NCBI GenBank assembly: GCA_012519925.1
Contig: JAAYPF010000087.1
Coordinates: forward strand, 1 to 64,000
Reading direction: 5' to 3'
Source of the DNA: Clostridiaceae bacterium
Lineage (GTDB): Bacteria; Bacillota; Clostridia; Acetivibrionales; Acetivibrionaceae
Length of the DNA: 64,000 nt
In this document: one piece after another, positions 1-50,636 of the stretch
Layout: the number at the start of each line of letters is the position of its first letter
Position numbering within the stretch: position 1 is the first letter of the stretch
Notes under the pieces: model-generated
What the model saw: only the letters and a program-made list of their open reading frames with translations
What the model was told of the DNA's origin: nothing
Database searches by the model: none
Position numbers and translations under genes: made by a program

Positions 1-121
1 CAATCCACTTGATACTATTATACTTATTATTCTTAAAAACTTTTTTACCCAATTTAGTTCCAGTCGGTCTTTTTGACCACCTGCAAACCCTTATTTTACG
101 GGCTTTTCTCCTTTTATTTAA

Positions 122-1657
122 CTACTCCCACTCAATTGTTGCAGGTGGTTTACTTGTTATATCATAAACAATCCTGTTTATATGCTTAACCTCGTTTACA
201 ATTCTATTTGATATCTTTTCTAATAAGTCATAGGGAATACGAGCCCAATCTGCTGTCATAAAATCTGTAGTAGTAACTGCTCGAAGTGCAAGGGTATAAT
301 CATAGGTTCTTTCATCCCCCATTACTCCGACACTTCTCATACCGGTAAGTACTGTAAAGTACTGGTTAATCTCCCTATCCAAACCTGCCTTTGCAATTTC
401 ATCACGGAATATGTGGTCTGTATCTCTCAATATTTCAAGCTTTTCTTTAGTTATATCTCCAATAATTCTTATAGCTAGACCTGGTCCTGGGAAGGGCTGT
501 CTCATAACTATATCATCGGGTATCCCAAGCTCTTTTCCAACTTTTCTCACTTCATCTTTAAAGAGATTTCTCAAAGGCTCTATTATTTCCTTAAAGTCCA
601 CATGGTCTGGAAGCCCCCCAACATTGTGATGACTTTTTATAACAGCAGCATTTCCTATACCACTCTCTATCACATCGGGATATATAGTTCCCTGAACGAG
701 GAAATCAACTGCTCCAATTTTTTTAGCTTCAACTTCAAACACTCTTATAAATTCTTCTCCAATAATCTTTCTCTTTGTCTCAGGATCTGTAACCCCGGCT
801 AATTTATCTAGAAATCTGTCTTCAACATTAACCCTTATAAGATTTATATCATACTGGTTTCTAAATACTTCTTCAACCTGGTCTCCCTCATATTTTCTTA
901 AAAGACCATGATTAACAAAAATACAGGTAAGTTGTTTTCCTATTGCTTTATGAATAAGGACTGCCGCAACAGAAGAATCCACACCGCCTGACAGTGCACA
1001 CAAAACCTTCTTATCTCCAACTTTTTCCCGGATTGCTTGTATTGAATGTTCTACAAAGGATGATATCTTCCAATCACCTGAACAGGAACAAATACCAAAA
1101 AGGAAATTATTTAAGATATCTCTTCCTCTTGGAGTATGAAGAACCTCAGGGTGGAACTGAACTCCATATAGCTTCTTCTCCACATTTTCCATTGCACCGA
1201 TAGGACAGTTTGCAGAATTAGCAGTTTTGACAAATCCTTCCGGCACCTTATCTACAAAATAAGTATGACTCATCCAGCAAGTTGACTCCTTGTCGATACC
1301 TTTAAACAAGCCACTTGTTACATCAAAACTAATATCTATTTTTCCATACTCACGGGAATCAGCCTTTTTAACCTCTCCGCCCAACATATAGGTCATAAGT
1401 TGCATTCCATAGCATATACCCAAAACCGGTATACCTAATGAAAATACCTCTTTATCACATATTGGTGCATTGGGATCTAGTACAGATGCAGGGCCTCCTG
1501 TAAAAATTATTCCTTTAGGCTTCATTGACTTTATTTTATCTATAGAAGAGTTATAAGGTATTACTTCACAATATACATTCGCTTCTCTAACTCTTCTTGC
1601 TATAAGCTGATTATACTGTCCTCCAAAATCAAGAACCAAAACTAATTCATTATTCAA
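122..1657 (-). CDS. guaA: GMP synthase (glutamine-hydrolysing)
   Basis: Converts XMP to GMP using glutamine and ATP, the last step of guanine nucleotide synthesis, in the cytoplasm. At 511 aa it has the full family length. The N-terminal class I glutamine amidotransferase domain shows the nucleophile Cys82 in GICYGMQ and the His169/Glu171 pair in FHPEV. The ATP pyrophosphatase domain starts with the PP-loop SGGVDS at 223-228, and the C-terminal dimerisation domain ends in the usual PPATIEWE. The start is a TTG, supported by AAGGAG 8 nt upstream. It is the last readable gene of a minus-strand run; the 145 bp upstream show no recognisable purine riboswitch. Confidence 0.97.
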
Positions 1658-38376: not shown

Positions 38377-39672
38377 TTATATTTCTCCTTCGCAAATCCA
38401 TTCTTCTACCTCAACAAGCCTAGCTTCACATATTAAATCATGTATGGAACTTTTCCTGACCTCTCCAATATTTAATACTATAGATTCTTGTTTGGATTTT
38501 TCGAAAATATACTGTCTTCCTATAGATAAGTTGTTCATACTAGCAGACTTTACAGTATCTTCAGGTACAGAAATCACAACAGGTATAATGACTTCATCAC
38601 CTGTTACCCGTAATTTAATATGATTTAAAAGCTCTCCAAATTTTTCTTCTTCATCACCTTTTTTATCCACATAAGGATTTAACGCTAGGGAAACAAGGAC
38701 CAAATTTTCTTTATCCTCATATACAAAACCTCTGTCGTGAGCAAATCCAAAAACCTCTTCAATAGCTTCATCTATCGGCATTTCCCTCAAATCATTATCC
38801 ATAAGAAGTATATCTGCATCTCTATTTAATGTATTTATGCCTACAACTATGTTATTTCTGTTAACAAACAACTCGAGACTAGGATTTATATCAATAACAA
38901 CAACAGCATAGCTTTTGTCGACGGGAGGCATCTCCATAAAGTAAAGCAAGCTTCTTAATAAAATTATACCAAAAATAATAATACTTGTAAAAGCAACAAC
39001 TTTTCTCATTATATATTGATGATTTTCTTTTTTTTCCCAAACCGCAAAACTAATCTGTTGTCCTAAAATCATTCCTTTTTTCTTTTTTACTAAAACAAAG
39101 CTGCAATCACTGGTCATCACAATCGCACCGTCTTGTGCTAATTCTACAATAGTACCAATATTATGGTTTTGATCTGTTTTTGCATATGTATTATCGATAT
39201 AAGCCTTCAAGCATTTAAGATCACTTTTGATAAATAGACATAATGCAATTATAAACCTACGGTTCTTTTCTAGTGTACCTCGATATATATTTACTACTTC
39301 CAATACTTCTTGAATTGGCAGAGTCTTTTTCTTTTCAATCTTTTCTAGCAACCATTCATCTTCCACAATACCTTTAGCAGTCTTTATGCACGCAAACATT
39401 GAACCTTCATTCTTTGGGCTGTAGGACAATAGCTTACGAAAAGATATTCTATAACGCTTAAGCTCTTTGCTCAAAGCTTGGATATCTTTTTTTAGTTTTA
39501 TAGTATTAAACTCATCGTTGTCCTCTAATTCTGTATATGATTCTTCAAAATCATAGTTCTGTTCTTTTTCTAAACATGTAAACAAACTATCTTTTATTAG
39601 CTCTTCTTGCTTTTGTCTTCTATCAGCATAACGAATTTTGAAATCCAAAGGTTCATCCCTCCATTCGTACAA
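38377..39672 (-). CDS. SigI C-terminal domain fused to RsgI-type anti-sigma factor
   Basis: A 431-aa protein. Residues about 60-160 match the C-terminal DNA-binding domain of sigma-I (ELKRYRISFRKLLSYSPK, then LPIQEVLEVV and the helix TLEKNRRFIIA). Residues 170-215 are an RsgI_N anti-sigma domain (GTIVELAQDGAIVMTSDCSF), 223-245 a transmembrane helix, and 253-340 the RsgI periplasmic domain with the Asn-Pro self-cleavage site DINPS (261-265). No sugar-sensing domain follows, and no SigI region 2 is encoded upstream. TTG start with AAGG; start uncertain. Function is probably regulatory (inference). Confidence 0.8.
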   Translation of the reverse strand: MYEWRDEPLDFKIRYADRRQKQEELIKDSLFTCLEKEQNYDFEESYTELEDNDEFNTIKLKKDIQALSKELKRYRISFRKLLSYSPKNEGSMFACIKTAKGIVEDEWLLEKIEKKKTLPIQEVLEVVNIYRGTLEKNRRFIIALCLFIKSDLKCLKAYIDNTYAKTDQNHNIGTIVELAQDGAIVMTSDCSFVLVKKKKGMILGQQISFAVWEKKENHQYIMRKVVAFTSIIIFGIILLRSLLYFMEMPPVDKSYAVVVIDINPSLELFVNRNNIVVGINTLNRDADILLMDNDLREMPIDEAIEEVFGFAHDRGFVYEDKENLVLVSLALNPYVDKKGDEEEKFGELLNHIKLRVTGDEVIIPVVISVPEDTVKSASMNNLSIGRQYIFEKSKQESIVLNIGEVRKSSIHDLICEARLVEVEEWICEGEI

Positions 39673-41022: not shown

Positions 41023-41526
41023 TTAATTAGCTTGTCCTAGCACAAATCTGCTCTTTCTCTCGATATCAAAGTCAGTAAACGTAGGAACATTCTCTGCTAC
41101 ATAGACTAAATGTTTTGTTTTAAACTTGTATTGTGTTAATACCAAAACCTCACAAATTTCAGGTCTATCTTCCTTTATACTCAAATTCACAATAAAATCG
41201 CTATATCTACCATCGTTGGATTTAAAATAAAGTATAGCTGTCTTTTCTCCCAAAATATCTGTTGAAGTATATCCTTCAATGCTCAAGTTTAAGCTGCTCT
41301 TAAAAGAATTACTGAAAGAATCTATAAACTTTTCTAAATCAATTTCTGGTTCAAGGTTTTTCGCCGCATCATCCTTAGAAGAGGTCATGATTGCCAGCTT
41401 TCCACAGTTATTTATGGTCGAATCTAACCTTGCCTTTTCTGAGACAAGTTGAAAACATTCAACTAAAGGACCAAGTAATGCTGTCGAGGCGACTACCAAC
41501 AAAATAGCATATGCAATACCTTTCAT
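41023..41526 (-). CDS. Tad-locus pseudopilin-like protein (distal gene)
   Basis: A 167-aa protein with one N-terminal hydrophobic helix (about 4-24) and an extracytoplasmic mixed domain. The N-terminus MKGIAYAILLVVASTALL is like TadE/TadG-type minor subunits, but the Glu5 of classical prepilins is missing. AAAGGTG precedes the ATG. It is the last gene of the Tad-type operon, 10 bp after its neighbour. Confidence 0.55.
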   Translation of the reverse strand: MKGIAYAILLVVASTALLGPLVECFQLVSEKARLDSTINNCGKLAIMTSSKDDAAKNLEPEIDLEKFIDSFSNSFKSSLNLSIEGYTSTDILGEKTAILYFKSNDGRYSDFIVNLSIKEDRPEICEVLVLTQYKFKTKHLVYVAENVPTFTDFDIERKSRFVLGQAN

Positions 41527-41536
41527 ATAATCACCT

Positions 41537-41986
41537 TTATTCCAAGTCTTTGTAGTATCTTATACCTGTTACCGGAAGCCGAAATGAAACTTCATAATCA
41601 ATCTGCCGCTCAGATCCTGCCAGTTCAAATCTGAAGGGATATGCTGCCCGTATTTCGACATAAAAAGTCTCACCCCTCTGTAGATATGGTTTTAACGAAA
41701 TGTCTAAGTCCTTATAGTATTCATAGGAATATTCTCCTTCTTGATCCGAGCTTATTTCTATCTTATCAGGACATTTATTAAAAACAGGCTTATTTTTTAA
41801 ATTGTCCAATATAAACACCTTTTCATCCTGAGGCAAGTAATTATAGTTTGCCGCTATAGATGCTAAATTTTGAGTCTCATAAGCCAAAGTCATATACCAT
41901 GGAAAAAACAGAACAAAGTTTGTAAATACAATAAAGGCTGCGACTACCAGTATAGATATTAATATAACTTTAGCAAATCCCGCCAT
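41537..41986 (-). CDS. Tad-locus pseudopilin-like protein
   Basis: A 149-aa protein with an N-terminal hydrophobic helix (about 5-30) and a soluble beta-rich remainder (KIEISSDQEGEYSYEYYKDL). The start MAGFAKVILISILVVAAF resembles the neighbour's layout: M-x-G, then a hydrophobic run. AGGAGAG precedes the ATG. Its position after TadC suggests a TadE/TadF-like component; sequence identity to those families is weak by eye. Confidence 0.55.
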   Translation of the reverse strand: MAGFAKVILISILVVAAFIVFTNFVLFFPWYMTLAYETQNLASIAANYNYLPQDEKVFILDNLKNKPVFNKCPDKIEISSDQEGEYSYEYYKDLDISLKPYLQRGETFYVEIRAAYPFRFELAGSERQIDYEVSFRLPVTGIRYYKDLE

Positions 41987-42037
41987 CTAGACTTCTCTCC
42001 TTTTTCGTATTTCTCGCCCACATACTTCTTACAAGAG

Positions 42038-42922
42038 TTAACCAAACAACTTTATGGCACCTATAAACTGGAAGTAGTAATACACTCCAATATATATGAA
42101 TAAAACTGCTATCAATATAAACTGAGTTCTTTCGTTACTTGCTTTTCTGTGGCTCAACTCTTCTTCTAATGCCACAACTCTAAGGTCATACAACTCGTTT
42201 TTAAGATATGCCATTTGCGAAGTATTGTCATACCCCTTAAGTCGGGCCTCCATAATATCACAGAATTTGATTATATATCTAAGAGGCACTCTTTTTTTAA
42301 GTTGTTTTAAAGCATATTCTTCCCCATACTCTATATTATCAAGAAGCACTCCTAATTCATCTGCCATATCTGGATTGGCATTAGGCAAAAAATCTTTTAT
42401 TACATCGGCAAGATAAATATTTATTGATCTTGAATATTGGTAATACACCATACTGTAAAATGCCGGAAAATCCTTCAGGATATTTTTGTTTTTTGACTCA
42501 ACTTTCTTTTCCAATTCATCAATTGGGTATAGCCATCCTAATACAACAAAAATCAAGCATACATAACCGAGTATCACCATTATTCTCATTATAACTAACG
42601 AGCATATAAGACCTGCTAAAGAGAATAAAATTTGATTAAATCTTATCTCTTCAGGAGTAATTTTTAAGTCAAGTCTGCTTACTAAAAAACTCAACTGTTC
42701 ACGTTTAATTTCACTAAGAAAAAGTTTATTGGACACCTTCCTCAAAACAATATCTCTAAAATACAAATATTTTTCCATTTTCATCTGTTTCTTTGTAATG
42801 ATTAAAAACTCCCTCGAGCGCTTTTTTCTCTTCGCTGACATAGGCTTAAAGGCTGGATAAATCAATATACTTACCAGATATGTTATTGCACAAAGACTTA
42901 ATAGTTTCGCAAACATAACCAT
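42038..42922 (-). CDS. TadC-like inner-membrane platform protein
   Basis: A 294-aa integral membrane protein with hydrophobic segments near 5-25, 95-130 and 270-290 and a soluble middle, the layout of T2SSF-type platform proteins. The pattern ILKDFPAFYSMVYYQYSRSINIYLADV is typical. GGAGGGG lies 8 nt before the ATG. Its start overlaps the TadB-like stop by one base, so the pair is coupled. Confidence 0.75.
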   Translation of the reverse strand: MVMFAKLLSLCAITYLVSILIYPAFKPMSAKRKKRSREFLIITKKQMKMEKYLYFRDIVLRKVSNKLFLSEIKREQLSFLVSRLDLKITPEEIRFNQILFSLAGLICSLVIMRIMVILGYVCLIFVVLGWLYPIDELEKKVESKNKNILKDFPAFYSMVYYQYSRSINIYLADVIKDFLPNANPDMADELGVLLDNIEYGEEYALKQLKKRVPLRYIIKFCDIMEARLKGYDNTSQMAYLKNELYDLRVVALEEELSHRKASNERTQFILIAVLFIYIGVYYYFQFIGAIKLFG

Positions 42923-43893
42923 TAATTATCCCCTCCAAACTTGCCTATATCACCCTGAAGAGCCTGGCACCTTGCAAATCCGAGACATATTGAAACAATA
43001 GCAGCAGTATTTATAAACCTTCCGATGTCATTATTCATAAGAAAACTTCTAAGTTCTTTAATTGTCATACTGTACATAATAAATATAAGTATCAGACAGG
43101 TCTTTAATAAAAAATCAAAATTCATTTTTTTAAAGATTCTGTTTTTCCTATTATTAATTTCTCTTAATGCAGCATTTTCATCTACAATATCTAAAAATAC
43201 ATCTGCCATTCCTTTTCTCTCGTTGTATTCAAATATAACAGCCTTTTTAGCAAAGCTATCAAATTTGGGGCCTAGTTGCTTATTAAGAACTTCCATAGCT
43301 CTCTTGAATGAATAACCGTGGTTTTCATAGTTTTCTACAAATTGTACAAAATAAGGGCGAATACTTTTATGGAGATACTCTTCCGATTCCAACACCTTTT
43401 TTACTGCGACCAAAACGCCTTCTCTTGCTAAAGGACACAATATATCTTCAGCATCCATTATGTATTCCATCTTCGCCGACTTTGTCTGCCTTGACTTCAT
43501 AGTAAAAAAGGTAATAAATCCAACAAGTATTGATACTGAAACAAAAGCCGAAAGTGTAATATTCTTCAGAAACATAACTACTAACAGCACCATTATTGCG
43601 AAAAGTATGCATATAAACGAGTTAAAGCCTTCAAGGGTAAGTGGCAAATTAAAATCGAAAATAAGGCTTTCCACTATATTATTGTACTTAGTTATAAGAC
43701 TCTCCTTTTGCTTAACTATCTTGCTTTTGCACACTCTTTTAACATAAGCCCGTGTGTTGCGGCTTGCAAGTCCTTCAACAACACCTATAAAAGCGTATTT
43801 TATATAGCTTGACATCTGTAGATCTAATATAATATTCAAAGTAAGTAAAGTTACAAAACCAAAACCTATACTAAACAGTAAATTTAAACCCAT
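42922..43893 (-). CDS. TadB-like inner-membrane platform protein
   Basis: A 323-aa integral membrane protein with hydrophobic segments at the N-terminus, near 100-125 and in the last 70 residues. The domain AEDILCPLAREGVLVAVKKVLESEEYLHKS and FDSFAKKAVIFEYNERKGMADVFLDIVDENA fit the T2SSF fold. I preferred the ATG at 43893 with GAGGAGG upstream over the ATG at 43917, which has no ribosome site. It overlaps the TadA end by 23 nt. Confidence 0.75.
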   Translation of the reverse strand: MGLNLLFSIGFGFVTLLTLNIILDLQMSSYIKYAFIGVVEGLASRNTRAYVKRVCKSKIVKQKESLITKYNNIVESLIFDFNLPLTLEGFNSFICILFAIMVLLVVMFLKNITLSAFVSVSILVGFITFFTMKSRQTKSAKMEYIMDAEDILCPLAREGVLVAVKKVLESEEYLHKSIRPYFVQFVENYENHGYSFKRAMEVLNKQLGPKFDSFAKKAVIFEYNERKGMADVFLDIVDENAALREINNRKNRIFKKMNFDFLLKTCLILIFIMYSMTIKELRSFLMNNDIGRFINTAAIVSICLGFARCQALQGDIGKFGGDN

Positions 43894-45328
43894 CGGTATT
43901 GTAAACCTCCTCTTCATTAGGGTCTACTGGACGCGTAAGAAATTCAAACTTGCTACGCTTAATACCAGACTTAAGCATCTTTTGCTGCAGTGCTTCAGAA
44001 ATACATCCTACTCTTTTATGCCTGCCTATAATGCTTTTTACCTTTCCTGTTTGTGGGTCGTCTTCTACATCTATACACTCAAATTCATATAATTGATTAA
44101 CAATGGGTGAAAGCCCCTCAGAACCAATAATTTCAGAAATAGAAGTCACTTTACGGGTTCCATCGGCTAGTTTTTCCTGGAAAACCACAAATTTAACTGC
44201 CGAGCAGATATTCCTAAGAGCCAGTTCTGCCGGTTCATCCGATTGAATCAGATAAGCAGTTAAGAATCTGTATATAGCCTCTTTATCCCCCTCAGCATGC
44301 AGTGTAGTAAAAAAGTAATGTCCCGTTTGAGCAGCACGAAGAGCAGTTGCGAATTCCCCCGGGGATCTCAACTCTCCCGGACCTATCCAATGGGGAGACT
44401 GTCTCATTGCATTTATCAATAGATTCTCCATGGTTGCAGGACTACTGTCATCGTCATCAGGAACCGATTCATATTGCAAGACATCATTTATTACCCTTTC
44501 GTTTGGATCATTATTTTTATATCTTAACAATCTAAGTTCGGAAGGGTTCTCTATTGTTATAATCCTACACAAAGGATCAATCTGCTTTATCAACACTTCG
44601 TTTAAAGTAGTCTTACCACTTCCTGTGGGTCCCACTGTCATCCATGACATATCTGCTCTTGGAATTAACGACAGTAATTTAAACATGTTTATGGAAAAAG
44701 ACTTGTCCCTTATCATCTTATCTGGAGACATAGTGCCCTTTTTAAATTTCCTTATTACAAAGGCAGGGTTTCCATAGGGTGAAATATCTGCATGAGTTGC
44801 ATTTACCCTGTAACCTTCAATAGTACGGGCATTAACCATAGGTGTTCTAGGTGTCATTCTTACCTTTGATACACCAATCAGTTTAGCAATAATTCTCTCC
44901 ATATGCTCTTTATCGGTAAAACATTTGTCCCACTGTTCACTTTTACCGTATTTCTCTACAAATATTTGGTAGGGACCATTTGCTCTTATCTCATCAATCT
45001 CAGCATCTTCCATTGCGTCTGTAATAGGACCGTAATGAGTTATTTCATCTATAAGTGCATTTCTTAAATCACCTAGATTTTCATAACCCTCAACATCGGG
45101 CTTCTGCGTTTCAACATAATCAATAATATATCTTTCAGTCATTTCCCTTTTCTTTTTTGGATCGTCAATTCTCCTGTAAAAATTTGAAGCAACCTTGCTT
45201 ATATACTGCTGACATTGTTTTAAAGATTCTTCAAAAGTCATCATTGTTAATTTATTTTGAGCATTTTCCACCTTGTGTATATATCTTGCTTTCTTTTGAA
45301 GTTCGCTAATACCACTCCTTGTGAGCAT
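43871..45328 (-). CDS. TadA/CpaF-type secretion ATPase
   Basis: A 485-aa hexameric ATPase of the TadA/VirB11/CpaF group that powers pilus or secretion assembly at the membrane. The Walker A GPTGSGKTT is intact at 233-241. The N-terminal helical bundle and the ATPase phrases EIDEIRANGPYQIFVEK and IGPGELRSPGEFATALRAAQTGH are typical, with TTLHAEGDKEA as the downstream His-box. I chose the ATG at 45328, 10 nt after GGGGG, over the GTG at 45346. Confidence 0.92.
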   Translation of the reverse strand: MLTRSGISELQKKARYIHKVENAQNKLTMMTFEESLKQCQQYISKVASNFYRRIDDPKKKREMTERYIIDYVETQKPDVEGYENLGDLRNALIDEITHYGPITDAMEDAEIDEIRANGPYQIFVEKYGKSEQWDKCFTDKEHMERIIAKLIGVSKVRMTPRTPMVNARTIEGYRVNATHADISPYGNPAFVIRKFKKGTMSPDKMIRDKSFSINMFKLLSLIPRADMSWMTVGPTGSGKTTLNEVLIKQIDPLCRIITIENPSELRLLRYKNNDPNERVINDVLQYESVPDDDDSSPATMENLLINAMRQSPHWIGPGELRSPGEFATALRAAQTGHYFFTTLHAEGDKEAIYRFLTAYLIQSDEPAELALRNICSAVKFVVFQEKLADGTRKVTSISEIIGSEGLSPIVNQLYEFECIDVEDDPQTGKVKSIIGRHKRVGCISEALQQKMLKSGIKRSKFEFLTRPVDPNEEEVYNTDGFKFTV

Positions 45329-45360
45329 AGTACAATCCCCCTGCACGAAGTTTTATTAAT

Positions 45361-46191
45361 TCATCTAACCATAAGGTCAACCAATCGTTCCATCGACCTC
45401 TGATATCTTTTGTCTAATAAAATACTATCTACAGAGTAAACACGACCATCAAGTGCATAGTTTATAACTGATGGAACATAGGGTATTTCAGCAATATACT
45501 TCATACCCATTTCAGTTATAATCTGCTTGTCATACTCAAAGCCCTGTACATTATTAAGTATTACGTTTGCAATTTTTGACGAGCTAATACCGATAGAACC
45601 TATAAAGCTCAAAAATCTTTGGGTATTCTGAGGACAATCAATTCTTTCACTCCATACACTAAACCCAACATTACAATGCTTTATAGCACTCACACAGAAC
45701 TCTAAAGGTGGGTTGTTTGGAACATCTATCAATATCAAATCAAACATTTCCTTTACAGTATCTATTATTCTTTCAATATCCTCAAACTGGAAATCCAAGT
45801 ATTCTTCTATGAGATCCATAGGACTTGGAGTTAGTAGATAAAGATTCTTATACTTTGTGTCACTGATTTCTTCCCGAAAGTCTATTTTATCGCTTCTTAA
45901 AAGCTTTATAAGTCCTCTTCCTTTTGGCATGGCTTCACAATCTAAAAGTTTGTATATGTTTGGATAAAAGACTTTGAAATCCAATACACATACATTCCAG
46001 GCTCTTTTAGCTATTGCAGCTGCAAGATTTGTTATTAATATTGAGGTATCTGCTGCTTCTCCTGAAGGAAAAAAAGCTATTACATTATCAATAATCTTAT
46101 TTGTTTCAATTTCGCTATATATCTTGTCTCTAGGAGAAAGTTTTTCGAGTATTTCCTTGACGTTCACTCGTTCTTGTCGCTGTTGATCCAT
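45361..46191 (-). CDS. Second TadZ/CpaE-like protein with degenerate P-loop
   Basis: A 276-aa MinD/ParA-fold protein (NVCVLDFKVFYPNIYKLLD, LILIDVPNNPPLEF, VILNNVQGF are typical strands). The Walker A position reads SGEAADTS (43-50), with Asp48 where the catalytic Lys should be, so ATP hydrolysis is doubtful. TadZ proteins place the Tad machine at the cell pole. AGGAGG precedes the ATG; the start overlaps the CpaB-like end by 28 nt. Confidence 0.78.
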   Translation of the reverse strand: MDQQRQERVNVKEILEKLSPRDKIYSEIETNKIIDNVIAFFPSGEAADTSILITNLAAAIAKRAWNVCVLDFKVFYPNIYKLLDCEAMPKGRGLIKLLRSDKIDFREEISDTKYKNLYLLTPSPMDLIEEYLDFQFEDIERIIDTVKEMFDLILIDVPNNPPLEFCVSAIKHCNVGFSVWSERIDCPQNTQRFLSFIGSIGISSSKIANVILNNVQGFEYDKQIITEMGMKYIAEIPYVPSVINYALDGRVYSVDSILLDKRYQRSMERLVDLMVR

Positions 46192-47054
46192 TTTTCTACC
46201 TCCTTTTCGACGGTAGGCAACTGTTCTATAAGATTTGTATTGTCCATTCTGCTGAGTATAGTAAAGGTAAAATCGCCATTCAAATTTAGTTTAGTATACC
46301 TATCCACCTGCTCGGGGGTAGCTTCAAAAACTAATGATTTAGCCATTATATTCTGTGTAAACTCTTTACTTTCCATAACTTTCTGCTTTTCTGATTCCCC
46401 GAGACTCATTATCTCCTTTTGATATTCATAAATAGATTGTCCTTTTGAATTCAACATATCCTTTATAAGAATTTGATCAAAGAGAATTTCAGTTCTATAT
46501 CTCCTATTGGCTGTTGATGCTATGTTGTCATATGGACTCTGACCTAAATCGGGCTCGAAGGATGCTTTAGCTTCTTCAAAAGTAACCCTGACTCTAACGA
46601 AATCCCCTGGACTAAGTATTTCTCCACCACACTTATCATAGTCATAAGGAATGGTTAGAGCTTCCGATTCTTTAGGCAACTCATATAACCATTCATGCCT
46701 TAAAGCTACGTCATCAGTTAATTGATCAAAATATAACGGTGTATCATATCTTAAAAAGTAAGCAGAGTATTTGTATAAAATCTCCTCAACTTTATCATAT
46801 GTGACCATTCCATCTCTAAAATCAGTTTTGAGTATTTTACCTTTTTTAATTAAGTTTTCTGTAATAAGCTTTTTTGCCGGAATTCCTTCACTAGGCTTTA
46901 TAACAACTATCTCAACAAATTCTTTGGCATCACTGTTAACACTATTTAAATATGAAAAAGATACAATTACAACAATTACGCTTACAACAACTGCAAATAT
47001 TTTCTTTGGCAGATTACTACCCGGTTTTATGTTCTTAAGACTATTTATATCCAT
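46164..47054 (-). CDS. CpaB/RcpC-like protein
   Basis: A 296-aa protein with one N-terminal transmembrane helix (about 17-38) and an extracytoplasmic SAF-like domain (VVIKPSEGIPAKKLITENLIKKG, then the long second half with SPGDFVRVRVTFEEA). CpaB/RcpC proteins help pilus assembly outside the membrane in Tad systems. The ATG at 47054 with GAGGAGG 5 nt upstream is better than the start seven codons earlier. Confidence 0.78.
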   Translation of the reverse strand: MDINSLKNIKPGSNLPKKIFAVVVSVIVVIVSFSYLNSVNSDAKEFVEIVVIKPSEGIPAKKLITENLIKKGKILKTDFRDGMVTYDKVEEILYKYSAYFLRYDTPLYFDQLTDDVALRHEWLYELPKESEALTIPYDYDKCGGEILSPGDFVRVRVTFEEAKASFEPDLGQSPYDNIASTANRRYRTEILFDQILIKDMLNSKGQSIYEYQKEIMSLGESEKQKVMESKEFTQNIMAKSLVFEATPEQVDRYTKLNLNGDFTFTILSRMDNTNLIEQLPTVEKEVEKWINSDKNE

Positions 47055-47120
47055 AAATACCTCCTCTAATTCCATGATGTCTTTGAATTTTAGGTTTTTC
47101 TATAGATAATTTGTAAGAGC

Positions 47121-48461
47121 TTAATCTAGATTTTTTAATATATTAAAATAGAAATTTTTATAAGAATTGTTGGTGTTGCTCAATCTGCCTCCACTTTCCG
47201 TCTGCAGATCAAACTCCATAGAATAGGGAACAAAGCCAGCATTTTGGTATTCTACTTCAAACCTTCCACTTAGGGCGTTTAGTATTTCACTAGTAAACTC
47301 AGGTGTAATCTTTTTGCCCTGATACCTATTGTTTTCATTGTATTTTGAGACTATTACCTTACTCTTTGTTGTAAAAAGCAAAGTGTCCTTTGATAGACTT
47401 CCTTCTATAGCCTTAACGGTATTTATAATTGAATACAAACTGTTATTTACACAAAGCCCAATACTGTCAATTTGAGCAATTATATCAGGTAGCTCTTTAA
47501 CTACTTCGAGAGGAAGATCAATTAAAACTATATTATATTTTTGTTTAAGAAGACTAATAAGACTTAATACTCTTTTATATTGCATTGCCTCTGAAATTCT
47601 TTCTTTACATGAAACAGAATATCCTAAAGTTATAATGGATAAATTTCTATTTATTTTACACGAATTCACATCGTAAGATTCAGGATTCATAAGACATCTT
47701 ATAAGAGAATAAGCCAATTCAGAGTTTAGTTCTACTTCATCACCGAATTTTGAAAAAAATAGATTTATACCTCTATAAACCGTATCCATATCTACAACCA
47801 TTACAGAAAATCCCTTGTCGCTTGCAACAGAAGCAATGTTAGCGACAGTACTTGTTACTCCAGATCCTCTATGTCCAGTAATTGCTATTATCTTTTTCAA
47901 ATTATTCGAGACGAATATTGGGTTTTCAGCATCCTGCTTTTTTGTACCTAAAGACTTACTATCATGAGATTCCTCATTCCTCCTCAATCCTGACTTTATC
48001 TTTGAAAATATTGATCTTGACTTTTTTAATACCACCGTATCTTCTATCAATTGATTGGAGTCATTATTTACTTCATTGTCACTGTTATCTGAAATGCAAA
48101 AATCAATAAGCATTGCTACTGGAATTTTTATCTGATCTGTCAAACAAACACTAAACCTTAAATCATTTTCAACAACCTGAATAAAAATCTTCTCAAGCTC
48201 AGCATCTTTTGTCAGAAACTTGAATTTTGTTCCTTGGTTTAGCAACTTCTTAAAACCTTCTAATAAGTCTTTAAAATTTTGATAATCATCAATAACACCT
48301 TGATCGGTAAGAAGTACTAAATCATATTCAATATAGTTCTTTGATATATATTCAAAAGCCTTTGATATTGATGTTTCAAACCTGACTACATCAATACCGT
48401 TCTTCTCTAAAGCCTGTTTTATGGTCTCAGAGTTAACGCCGCCTATCAGATAGAGTTTCAT
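47121..48461 (-). CDS. TadZ/CpaE-like protein with N-terminal receiver-like domain and degenerate P-loop
   Basis: A 446-aa protein. Residues 1-120 resemble an atypical receiver domain (MKLYLIGGVNSETIKQAL, then DLVLLTDQG), a linker follows, and residues 190-446 are a MinD/ParA-like fold. The Walker A reads GHRGSGVTST (196-205), with Val202 in place of the catalytic Lys. The switch strand VVDMDTVYRGINLFF is kept. GGGGG precedes the ATG at 48461 by 6 nt. TadZ/CpaE proteins act as polar localisation factors. Confidence 0.82.
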   Translation of the reverse strand: MKLYLIGGVNSETIKQALEKNGIDVVRFETSISKAFEYISKNYIEYDLVLLTDQGVIDDYQNFKDLLEGFKKLLNQGTKFKFLTKDAELEKIFIQVVENDLRFSVCLTDQIKIPVAMLIDFCISDNSDNEVNNDSNQLIEDTVVLKKSRSIFSKIKSGLRRNEESHDSKSLGTKKQDAENPIFVSNNLKKIIAITGHRGSGVTSTVANIASVASDKGFSVMVVDMDTVYRGINLFFSKFGDEVELNSELAYSLIRCLMNPESYDVNSCKINRNLSIITLGYSVSCKERISEAMQYKRVLSLISLLKQKYNIVLIDLPLEVVKELPDIIAQIDSIGLCVNNSLYSIINTVKAIEGSLSKDTLLFTTKSKVIVSKYNENNRYQGKKITPEFTSEILNALSGRFEVEYQNAGFVPYSMEFDLQTESGGRLSNTNNSYKNFYFNILKNLD

Positions 48462-48600: not shown

Positions 48601-49248
48601 TTATACCATAGCATTCTCTAATTTATTAATATAGTCGTGTAATGCAATATTGTTTTCCCTTAAAATATTGCATATCTCTATTCCATATTCATAGCTTTTA
48701 CCTAAATCAGCTTTTCTTATTACCTTTCCTTTAAAACTACACCTCTGTTTTTTATTGAAATTTATGCTGATATAGACTCTACTATCCACCTCAAAATTAC
48801 TAGAGCAATCAACCCTAAGTCCTTCAAAACTCAAATCTCTTACCACAACCGCCTTTCCATTTTCATCAGCCTCATTCTTAATCATTCCTGAGAGACTCAC
48901 AAAATAGCGGCTACGCTTTCTCATATTACCACGCTTCTTTATTTCATTTAAGGTTAAAACTATTTCAACTGGTGAACAGTATTTGATAAAAAGAATCTCT
49001 CCATCTGCCCAAAAGACTTCATTTGATTTCACAAAACTTAATACAATCTTGTCATTCACACGGAATCTGTCCCGATCTATAATATCATCTATAGATATTT
49101 TTATTTGTTCATCAGATACACTTTCGACGGTAGCCTCAAAATGTTCGTCATATTCAAAATGCTTCAATTTGACTATATTATCCTTGTTCAACAATCTTTC
49201 AATATTTGTTCTTCCAAAAAAAGAATCAAAAAAAGACTTTGCTGACAT
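48601..49248 (-). CDS. PilZ-domain protein (c-di-GMP effector), first gene of the Tad operon
   Basis: A 215-aa protein of the YcgR-like layout. Residues 20-100 are an N-terminal PilZN-like beta domain, and residues 105-210 a PilZ domain. The c-di-GMP motifs are present: RKRSR (110-114) as RxxxR, and DLSFEG (138-143) as (D/N)xSxxG. AAAGGAG lies 8 nt before the ATG. Its position at the head of the Tad-type operon suggests c-di-GMP control of that machine (inference). Confidence 0.87.
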   Translation of the reverse strand: MSAKSFFDSFFGRTNIERLLNKDNIVKLKHFEYDEHFEATVESVSDEQIKISIDDIIDRDRFRVNDKIVLSFVKSNEVFWADGEILFIKYCSPVEIVLTLNEIKKRGNMRKRSRYFVSLSGMIKNEADENGKAVVVRDLSFEGLRVDCSSNFEVDSRVYISINFNKKQRCSFKGKVIRKADLGKSYEYGIEICNILRENNIALHDYINKLENAMV

Positions 49249-49511: not shown

Positions 49512-50636
49512 TTAGTTTGTTATTTTAACTTCCTTTAAATCTCCATCCCATGCAACCTTTAGACCAAGATTTTCACTTACAAATCTCAGAGGTAATACTG
49601 TTCTGCCCTCTATAATTTCGGGTACTACATCAAGCCTTTTCAGTTTACCTCCAACTATTGCAGCATCCTTACCAATCCACAACTCAACTATCTGTTCTCC
49701 AAAAGAAATTGTTACTTTTTCTTCTTTACCATTCCAGTCAACTTTAGCACCAAAGGTCTCAGAAACATATCTTATGGGCAATAATGTTCTACCATCCTTT
49801 ATTATAGGTGCAAGGTCCATTTCATTCTTCACATCATTAATATAGTAGTATTTTACTCCGATATAAAAGCGTTGAACAATTTGTTGTGTAGAATTTGGTA
49901 CTTCCTCATTTTCTTCGATAATTTCTTGGCTATTGTCTGGATTAGAATCCAAATCTCCACTAGTATTTTTAGGCACATTACCGTCGGTTACTTTTGGTGT
50001 CGGAACTATTTTTGAAGTTGGACCACTAGATGTAGTTGGTGACGGTGTTACTAATTGAGTTGTTGTTGGAGTTATGAATTTTGATGGTGTTGATGTTATT
50101 GATGGTGTTGATGTTATTGATGGTTTCGGTGCTGATGTTGGCGTTGATGTTGGTGTTAGTTTCGGCGTCGATGTTGGTGTTGATGTTGGTTTCGGTGTTG
50201 ATGTTGATTTCGGCGTTGTTGGTGTTGATGTTGGTTTCGGCGTTGATGTTGGTTTCGACGTTGGTGTTTGTGTTGGTTTCGGTGTTGATGTTGGTTTCGA
50301 CGTTGGTGTTTGTGTTGATTTCGGTGTTGATGTTGGTTTCGACGTTGGTGTTTGTGTTGGTTTCGGTGTTGATGTTGGTTTCGATAGTGTTCTTAATACT
50401 TCTCCTGTTGGTGTCGGTGTACTATAACTTGGTCGTGCTGTTGTTGTCATTGGTTCTAATATCTCTCTATTTGATCCTGAGTCCTCTTCTAATATATCCC
50501 ACCTATTTCTTAAAACTTCTCTTTCGGCATAAGAATTGCTTGCATACAACAAAGATGAACCATTAGGTAAACAAATCAAACCTCCAAGAATTAAACTAGC
50601 TGTTAAAACATAACACCAAAGTTTTGATTTACGCAT
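49512..50636 (-). CDS. Secreted protein with Thr/Pro-rich linker and stalk-type (copper amine oxidase N-terminal-like) domains
   Basis: A 374-aa secreted protein. Residues 1-33 are a signal peptide ending near LYASNSYA. A long low-complexity linker of Thr, Pro, Ser and Lys (about 80-225) is built partly from a 14-residue unit ending TPTSKPTSTPK repeated in tandem. Residues 250-374 carry two stalk-type repeats, with DGRTLLPIRYVSETFGAKVDW and its partner EGRTVLPLRFVSENLGLKVAW. Such linkers often carry sugars, and the stalk domains bind cell wall or extracellular material in clostridia (family inference). GGGG before ATG. Confidence 0.82.
   Translation of the reverse strand: MRKSKLWCYVLTASLILGGLICLPNGSSLLYASNSYAEREVLRNRWDILEEDSGSNREILEPMTTTARPSYSTPTPTGEVLRTLSKPTSTPKPTQTPTSKPTSTPKSTQTPTSKPTSTPKPTQTPTSKPTSTPKPTSTPTTPKSTSTPKPTSTPTSTPKLTPTSTPTSAPKPSITSTPSITSTPSKFITPTTTQLVTPSPTTSSGPTSKIVPTPKVTDGNVPKNTSGDLDSNPDNSQEIIEENEEVPNSTQQIVQRFYIGVKYYYINDVKNEMDLAPIIKDGRTLLPIRYVSETFGAKVDWNGKEEKVTISFGEQIVELWIGKDAAIVGGKLKRLDVVPEIIEGRTVLPLRFVSENLGLKVAWDGDLKEVKITN
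50242..50390 (-). repeat. 42-bp coding tandem repeat (three near-identical units)
   Basis: The linker-coding DNA repeats a 42-bp unit encoding 14 residues of the type PTQTPTSKPTSTPK three times, with the middle copy starting STQ instead of PTQ. The units are almost identical at DNA level, consistent with recent expansion by slippage. Confidence 0.8.

Follow-up and report, generated by a model that had tools for sequence, protein, structure and literature searches.

We predict that two MinD-fold proteins encoded in one operon, here called P1 and P2, serve a Tad-type pilus machine as cytoplasmic landmarks or scaffolds, with P1 as a nucleotide-binding TadZ and P2 as a pseudo-ATPase that would be a structural partner of P1, of the TadA-TadB-TadC platform, or of both. 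From sequence, structural models, and analogy with a described TadZ, we give this reading a probability of roughly 0.55. The genes lie in the window (the whole stretch of 64,000 nucleotides that was analyzed), and both open reading frames were confirmed. The operon and its surroundings contain the following features:

41023..41526, minus strand: small membrane-anchored protein 2, TadF-like by position, in 37/45 neighborhoods
41537..41986, minus strand: small membrane-anchored protein 1, TadE-like by position, in 37/45 neighborhoods
41987..42037, no strand: 51-base gap without a gene; both same-genus genomes have a Flp-like pilin gene at this place
42038..42922, minus strand: TadC-like membrane platform protein, assigned from its position and the operon order; no curated family cut-off reached
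42922..43917, minus strand: TadB-like membrane platform protein, assigned from its position and the operon order; no curated family cut-off reached
43871..45331, minus strand: TadA/CpaF-type assembly ATPase (T2SSE, PF00437, E 1.8e-26) with an intact P-loop, GPTGSGKTT
45361..46191, minus strand: P2, MinD-fold protein of 276 aa, probable pseudo-ATPase; loop FPSGEAADTS, Glu45, Asp48, Lys73
46164..47075, minus strand: CpaB/RcpC-like protein, encoded between P1 and P2 and sharing the last 28 bases of its gene with the start of P2
47121..48461, minus strand: P1, TadZ-type protein of 446 aa; residues 1-123 a receiver-like domain, 127-186 a linker modeled with low confidence, 187-446 a MinD/ParA-fold domain whose loop is GHRGSGVTS
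48601..49248, minus strand: PilZ-domain protein (PF07238, E 2.1e-12), directly upstream of P1, likewise in both same-genus genomes

The operon has a conserved order: P1-CpaB-P2-TadA-TadB-TadC-(Flp)-two small membrane proteins. CpaB is next to P2 in 45/45 neighborhoods, P1 is present in 44/45 (the contig of locus L094 begins inside CpaB), and TadA is present in 43/45. At locus L092 an unrelated ORF follows P2, and there is no TadA on the remaining 3 kb of the contig. Normally only the CpaB-like gene separates P1 from P2, with one extra ORF in three loci. The CpaB/RcpC-like protein matches RcpC (E 2.5e-4) and CpaB (TIGR03177, E 3e-4), both under the curated cut-offs, and the P-loop Lys of TadA occurs in all 43 aligned rows from the same operon. 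The Flp major pilin gene of a Tad pilus operon is missing from the operon in the window, and there is no Flp-like match in the window genome at E ≤ 0.01; such a match is present somewhere in 17 of the 18 operon-bearing genomes.

P1 has the architecture of TadZ/CpaE proteins, a receiver-like domain followed by a MinD/ParA-fold domain (seen in the DSSP elements and in the alignment to PDB 3fkq), and its gene is in a locus with tadA, tadB, tadC, and cpaB, where TadB and TadC are assigned by position. We take 3fkq to be the TadZ of Eubacterium rectale; the entry title says two-domain protein from E. rectale. The AF2 model of P1 (mean pLDDT 78.8) aligns with 3fkq in the VIA fold comparison with a Z score of 21.1 over 320 residues, and the alignment includes both domains (model range 1..446). 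An overall rmsd of 19.7 fits a difference in how the domains are arranged, and P1 differs from the E. rectale protein in sequence, with 14% identity over the structural alignment. The match came from fold comparison only. PDB sequence searches, by single sequence and by profile, did not list 3fkq, nor was it among the best 60 of 369 rows. Neither P1 nor P2 attains any curated Pfam or NCBIfam cut-off. Pfam TadZ_N (PF16968) has no match at E ≤ 1 in P1 and none in the window genome; it is a narrow model, with 0/249 genomes of the phylum above its cut-off. We dropped it as a route to classical TadZ proteins, as it gave four weak sub-cut-off matches in 3/249 genomes.

The P-loop lysines of MinD/ParA ATPases are absent from P1 in all 44 aligned rows (the window and 43 loci). 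The loop region reads ITGHRGSGVTST, with no Lys in the loop, and the P-loop Lys position (202) holds V in 25 rows, L in 15, A in 2, and I in 2. The signature-lysine position is H in 39 rows, C in 3, D in 1, and R in 1. Other site residues are kept: two later loop glycines (42/44 and 44/44), the Thr/Ser (44/44), the base-site Asn375 (43/44), and Asp224, Asp226, and Asp315 (44/44 each), so that the catalytic and Walker-type aspartates are present. Arg198 (42/44), Lys/Arg350 (41/44), and Lys366 (44/44) are candidate compensating residues, picked from the sequence, whose charges may stand in for the lysine. GKT or GKS is retained in each of the five other MinD/ParA-type proteins of the window genome among the matches listed at E ≤ 1: ParA, MinD, Mrp, a protein resembling tyrosine kinases, and the CpaE from a second Tad locus.

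The TadZ of E. rectale (Xu et al. 2012, cited by both PMC10482377 and PMC11300603) has ATPase activity despite the loss of both lysines, a lysine of an adjacent helix compensating, according to PMC10482377. P1 resembles this protein in its two-domain architecture and in having neither P-loop lysine in its MinD-fold domain, the lysine state of the E. rectale protein being that given in PMC10482377. Because of this report, and by analogy, the lysine gap of P1 has a precedent and does not imply nucleotide loss. A step from lysine loss alone to ATP loss is not supported, given the same report, and P1 keeps the other site residues. We predict that P1 is the TadZ of the operon, with a receiver-like domain that may be involved in positioning and a MinD-fold domain that, like the E. 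rectale protein, probably still binds nucleotide although the classical lysine is absent. According to PMC13189830, TadZ proteins with Walker A deviations have little or no ATPase activity left but keep their polar localization.

P2 is the unusual member of the two, a probable pseudo-ATPase with a charge-inverted site, judging by its sequence. Its loop region reads FFPSGEAADTSIL, without Lys in the loop, and residues 44-50 contain no Lys in any of the 45 aligned rows (the window and 44 loci). The earlier observation that both proteins lack the P-loop lysine is borne out, and its description of Asp for Lys in P2 is off by one: hhalign of the P2 profile against the CpaE and MinD of the window genome pairs Asp48 with the final Gly of the loop and Thr49 with the Lys. 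The lysine-equivalent position is Asn in 34/45 rows. The lysine is not the sole change, as the phosphate loop is replaced wholesale and the loop glycines are gone. Residues 45 and 48 are each acidic in 45/45 rows, and the catalytic-Asp position (residue 73) is K in 41, D in 3, and N in 1, so P2 has neither the phosphate-binding loop nor the catalytic Asp of a MinD/ParA ATPase. Asp71 is present in 45/45. Because the two acidic positions, Lys73, and Asp71 are so conserved, P2 is under constraint and shows no decay.

The fold of P2 is that of MinD/ParA/BY-kinase proteins (top VIA row, Z 18.9), and its model has a mean pLDDT of 68.0 and is weak at the N-terminus and in the C-terminal third. In the rows listed the MinD-fold match begins between residues 25 and 36; since this early start and the length of 276 aa leave no space for it, P2 lacks an N-terminal receiver-like domain. 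The initial annotation had the rest of the fold kept in both proteins, and this stands for the fold comparisons of both; it does not stand for the catalytic Asp of P2, which is Lys73, or for the weakly modeled ends. 3fkq is not among the best 50 rows listed for the P2 fold search, an absence from that listing which is no evidence that the match is lacking. A relationship of P2 to BY-kinases was considered and set aside: the kinase domains of Wzc, Etk, and CapB are the top Foldseek rows, but the VIA scores of ParA and MinD are within 1, a tie.

In the tree, P1 and P2 do not come out as sister groups, so the term paralogues used for them earlier applies at the level of the superfamily and not to any closer kinship. 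One MinD-like protein of other Bacillota groups with P2, with support of 94/90, which is not starred. We compared P2 with nine Bacillota MinD-like proteins found with the G286 query (L112-L119 and L121). Six of the nine share with P2 a DFK stretch after strand 2, and a CpaF-like P-loop is nearby in 6/10 of the loci L112-L121. Unlike P2, eight of the nine keep GKT, and L118 has Ser for Lys. The idea of Lys73 as a compensating lysine in P2 is weakened by these apparent cousins, since 6/9 carry the same K while keeping a P-loop Lys; the remaining three carry S or N. As it is also present in apparent cousins that retain the P-loop Lys, Lys73 is no response to lysine loss.

Within the order, 18 of 58 genomes have P1, and those same 18 have P2. 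This co-occurrence and the fixed loss of lysine in both agree with the earlier suggestion of a structural pair, and lysine loss by itself is no proof of ATP loss. Because the absence of lysine is a fixed family trait in both proteins, a structural role for P2 is likely on sequence grounds. P2, the second MinD-fold protein, without a receiver domain and with its phosphate loop replaced and its site charge-inverted, would most likely be a pseudo-ATPase and a fixed structural partner of P1, of the TadA-TadB-TadC platform, or of both.

A tentative alternative is an obligate P1-P2 heterodimer in place of ATP-driven dimerization, in which Arg198 of P1 would pair with the acidic residue 45 (or 48) of P2 and the dimer would be locked without nucleotide turnover. 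In MinD/ParA dimers the loop segment in question faces the partner. The obligate pairing and synteny of the two genes fit this, as do the conserved charges of opposite sign that the alignment places at one loop position (Arg in 42/44 for P1, Asp/Glu in 45/45 for P2), but the two P1 exceptions (Ser in L078, Gly in L093) accompany a P2 that is acidic at 45 and 48, and two extra P1 copies away from P2 (L040 and L043), in genomes with one P2 each, retain Arg198. Covariation of Arg198 with residues 45/48 was checked by eye in this small sequence set and was not upheld, the two P1 exceptions having no matching P2 change. We regard as somewhat doubtful the version in which a constitutive asymmetric P1-P2 dimer stands in place of ATP-switched dimerization, where the acidic loop of P2 would dock on the Arg loop of P1 to give a permanent landmark for the pilus and perhaps for the T7SS in relatives.

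That both proteins are still real ATPases, with residues from elsewhere substituting for the lysine, is unlikely. It would follow the precedent reported for E. rectale TadZ in PMC10482377, and it could draw on the retained aspartates, base-site Asn, and invariant Lys366 of P1 and on Lys73 inside the site of P2. However, P2 has no loop glycines and has two acids where the phosphates would lie, and any nucleotide still bound would go unhydrolyzed, because Lys73 takes the place of the catalytic Asp. Very improbable is a reading of the genes as decaying remnants. The pilin gene present in both congeners is missing here, and the window genome has no full-length match to the T7SSg ATPase, yet all ORFs of the operon are open and full length, P2 shares 86% and 85% identity with its two homologues from the same genus, and lysine loss is common to all 44 rows of P1 and all 45 of P2. 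Since all rows share the lysine loss while both congeners retain the pilin gene, the lysine loss is older than the pilin loss.

The operon differs from the E. rectale TadZ system by encoding P2 as a further MinD-fold protein, with a CpaB gene separating it from P1. The second Tad locus of the window genome (contig C31, L104) is similar in having a receiver-like plus MinD-fold CpaE/TadZ adjoining CpaB and a CpaF-type ATPase; it differs in that its CpaE keeps the full KGGVGKTT, there is one MinD-like gene, and there are three Flp-like pilin ORFs (named by sequence).

A survey of T7SSg (PMC11217815) describes a Tad pilus locus beside T7SSg genes, and Acetivibrio and Paenibacillus relatives carry this same operon. 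In many of the neighborhoods there are YukD-like, DUF5050, FtsK/EssC-type ATPase, and WXG100 genes, whereas none of these is adjacent in the window, whose operon also differs in having no Flp pilin gene. A full-length TsgC match is absent from the window genome, and PF10824 is a poor family query for WXG100 and tells little about T7SS in this genome. The available text of PMC11217815 mentions neither two TadZ-like proteins nor lysine loss, and it poses without an answer the question of a functional link between the pilus machine and the T7SSg. In the Acetivibrio and Paenibacillus relatives, P1 and P2 beside T7SSg genes would offer two deletable genes to probe such a pilus-secretion link.

By title or abstract opening, we found no report in the open-licence literature of a single operon that encodes two TadZ-like proteins. 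The usual description of MinD/ParA proteins is that of positional switches driven by ATP. If our reading is true, a lysine-less TadZ together with a probable pseudo-ATPase with inverted charges would show how such a switch can turn into a fixed scaffold.

The window encodes a minus-strand operon in the order P1 (the larger MinD-like protein, 446 aa), CpaB-like, P2 (the smaller one, 276 aa), TadA/CpaF, TadB-like, TadC-like and two small membrane-anchored proteins. The family match is strong for TadA/CpaF and weak for the CpaB-like protein, and the last four genes are named from operon order only. The CpaB-like gene and P2 overlap by 28 bases.

48601-49248, PilZ-domain gene, directly upstream of P1
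47121-48461, minus strand, P1
46164-47075, minus strand, CpaB-like protein
45361-46191, minus strand, P2
43871-45331, minus strand, TadA/CpaF ATPase
42922-43917, minus strand, TadB-like protein
42038-42922, minus strand, TadC-like protein
41537-41986, minus strand, small membrane-anchored protein
41023-41526, minus strand, small membrane-anchored protein

A PilZ-domain gene also adjoins P1 upstream in both same-genus genomes (L102, L103), and no counterpart of the window's gene was matched in 44 other neighbourhoods. It is possible that this gene provides a c-di-GMP input. The protein at 49512-50636 combines a repeat linker rich in Thr and Pro with a domain resembling the copper-amine-oxidase N-terminal domain (PF07833, E 8.2e-35). 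Downstream of the operon (38377-39672) is a predicted protein that presumably resembles an RsgI-type anti-sigma factor; a similar one follows the operon in genome G002.

P1 is present in 18 of 58 genomes of the order, and P2 in the same 18. A scan with one genome per species identified 44 loci, in Acetivibrio, Herbivorax, Pseudobacteroides, Anaerobacterium, Alkaliphilus, many Paenibacillus, and several metagenome bins. In all 45 neighbourhoods (these loci and the window), CpaB lies next to P2; P1 was found in 44, along with TadA (43), TadB (42), TadC (39), and the two small proteins (37 each). Three loci (L054, L058, L059) carry an extra ORF of 258-365 aa between P1 and CpaB, L060 and L062 have other genes where the small proteins would be, TadA is broken into three ORFs in L067, and L066 stops at P2. 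In L092 (7465-11796), P1-CpaB-P2 is followed by two unrelated ORFs, with a 401-aa surface-type ORF in TadA's place and no TadA on the remaining 3 kb of the contig; this may be a rearrangement or a TadA-free copy. The remaining gene absences are mostly at contig ends. The P2 profile has matches at E <= 1e-10 in 6 of 398 phylum genomes, four of them strong (E below 1e-100, window included).

Some P1 homologues have a Ser/Thr protein kinase domain in place of the receiver-like domain. One is the operon's own P1 in L077 (7366-9081; Pkinase E 1.3e-49), and two, recognized by sequence, are extra copies in genomes G004 and G005 (L040, L043). A prepilin-peptidase-like ORF, named by eye, lies beside the G004 copy.

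The initial annotation had described P1 as lacking the P-loop lysine, and this reading holds. The loop is GHRGSGVTS, and the lysine position (Val202) is V in 25, L in 15, A in 2, and I in 2 of the 44 aligned rows (window and 43 loci), with Lys in none; L094 is outside this count because its contig starts within CpaB. All 20 P1 ORFs from the order search, which overlap with this set, are also lysine-less. The two later loop glycines are kept in 42/44 and 44/44, and residue 198, just after the signature lysine position, is Arg in 42/44. The site residues Asp224, Asp226, and Asp315 are retained in 44/44 and Asn375 in 43/44. Given these residues and the candidate charges Arg198, Lys/Arg350, and Lys366, nucleotide binding by P1 is plausible from its sequence. 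As controls, TadA of the operon retains the P-loop Lys in 43/43, and five other MinD/ParA-type proteins of the window's genome (matches at E <= 1), including the CpaE on contig C31, retain GKT or GKS.

The P1 model (mean pLDDT 78.8) matches MinD/ParA chains. Over both domains it aligns with 3fkq (Z 21.1, 320 residues aligned, rmsd 19.7), an E. rectale entry whose title describes a two-domain protein and which we take to be E. rectale TadZ. P1 is most likely the operon's TadZ. The E. rectale TadZ structure paper is cited in PMC11300603 and PMC10482377, consistent with 3fkq being TadZ. According to PMC10482377, E. rectale TadZ has ATPase activity despite the loss of both lysines, and a helix lysine compensates.

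The P2 model (mean pLDDT 68.0, with low confidence at the N-terminus and in some stretches past residue 182) lacks a receiver domain and has a MinD/ParA/BY-kinase fold, with Z 18 to 18.9 in the top rows. Its loop, PSGEAADTS, lacks the lysine in 45/45 (window and 44 loci), as do the 18/18 P2 ORFs of the order search, which overlap with this set. The initial annotation was correct on this loss but had put Asp48 in the place of the lysine. In the hhalign alignment with CpaE of the same genome, S-G-E-A-A-D-T-S is opposite t-k-g-g-v-g-k-t, which places Glu45 and Asp48 at glycines of the loop and Thr49 at the lysine position. The alignment of the P2 profile with MinD begins at Ala47 and is in the same register. 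Position 49 is Thr in the window and Asn in 34/45, and positions 45 and 48 are each acidic in 45/45. The catalytic-Asp position is Lys73 in the window (K 41, D 3, N 1, n=45), and Asp71, which precedes it, occurs in 45/45. With acids on the loop glycines and Lys at the catalytic position, the P2 site is charge-inverted, beyond mere lysine loss, and P2 is most likely a pseudo-ATPase.

BLASTP aligns P1 and P2 at 21% over 128 columns (E 0.007), and their profiles match at E 3.5e-6 and E 1.4e-7, about equal to P1-MinD (E 1.7e-7). In a 33-row tree, P1 forms one clade (100/100) and P2 one clade (100/99), with no sister relationship between the two. P2 groups with a MinD-like protein of another Bacillota genome (94/90), in a tree with weak deep branches and several long rows. 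Among this protein and its relatives (L112-L119 and L121, n=9; L116 read by eye; L120, L122 and L123, which could not be read reliably, and the more distant L124-L131 left out), GKT is found in 8/9, and the catalytic-Asp position is K in six and S or N in three. If the grouping is right, the catalytic Asp was lost before the lysine in P2's line. In L118 (genome G331) of this group, Ser replaces the P-loop Lys (VRGGSGSTLL), apparently through an independent loss. A CpaF-like P-loop, by motif only, is nearby in 6 of the 10 loci L112-L121.

It had also been suggested that the two proteins form a heterodimer replacing ATP-driven dimerisation. Glu45 of P2 is opposite Arg198 of P1 in the P1-P2 profile alignments, so the same loop position bears opposite conserved charges, and MinD-type dimers have this loop at their interface. 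However, the two P1 exceptions to Arg198 have no matching change in P2, and Arg198 is kept in the extra P1 copies of L040 and L043, which adjoin no P2. We consider a P1-P2 heterodimer rather unlikely.

Downstream of the operon, many loci carry genes for a YukD-like and a DUF5050 protein, for a 1,300-aa FtsK/EssC-type ATPase, and for WXG100 proteins; the ATPase cluster occurs in 33/45 neighbourhoods. This fits the T7SSg locus with a full adjoining Tad set described in PMC11217815. A strong match to the ATPase (E below 1e-200) was found in 13/18 operon genomes versus 3/40 others of the order (G036, G037, G043). The ATPase is divided over two ORFs in G012, interrupted by one stop in G026, and on a contig other than the operon's in G001. 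The window's genome is among five operon genomes without a strong match, two of which are only 83% complete.

Both same-genus genomes have an Flp-like pilin gene between tadC and the next gene, where the window has only 51 bases (41987-42037), within which AAGGAG precedes the next gene. An Flp-like gene directly follows TadC in at least 28 of the 39 neighbourhoods having TadC (strict pattern search). The window's genome has no Flp-like pilin match at E <= 0.01; among the order's 18 genomes with the operon, 17 have one. The absence in the window could be real loss or assembly loss. A second, canonical Tad locus is on contig C31 (L104, 3565-11351), with three Flp-like pilin ORFs and TadE-like genes (both named by eye), CpaB, CpaE, and CpaF. 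Its CpaE retains KGGVGKTT.

Both a TadZ without the lysine and the Tad-T7SSg neighbourhood have been published before. The open-licence literature searched yielded no Tad operon with a fixed pair of lysine-less MinD-fold proteins of which one has an inverted site. Based on synteny and constraint, P2 may be a fixed partner in a scaffold that would position the TadA-B-C machine.
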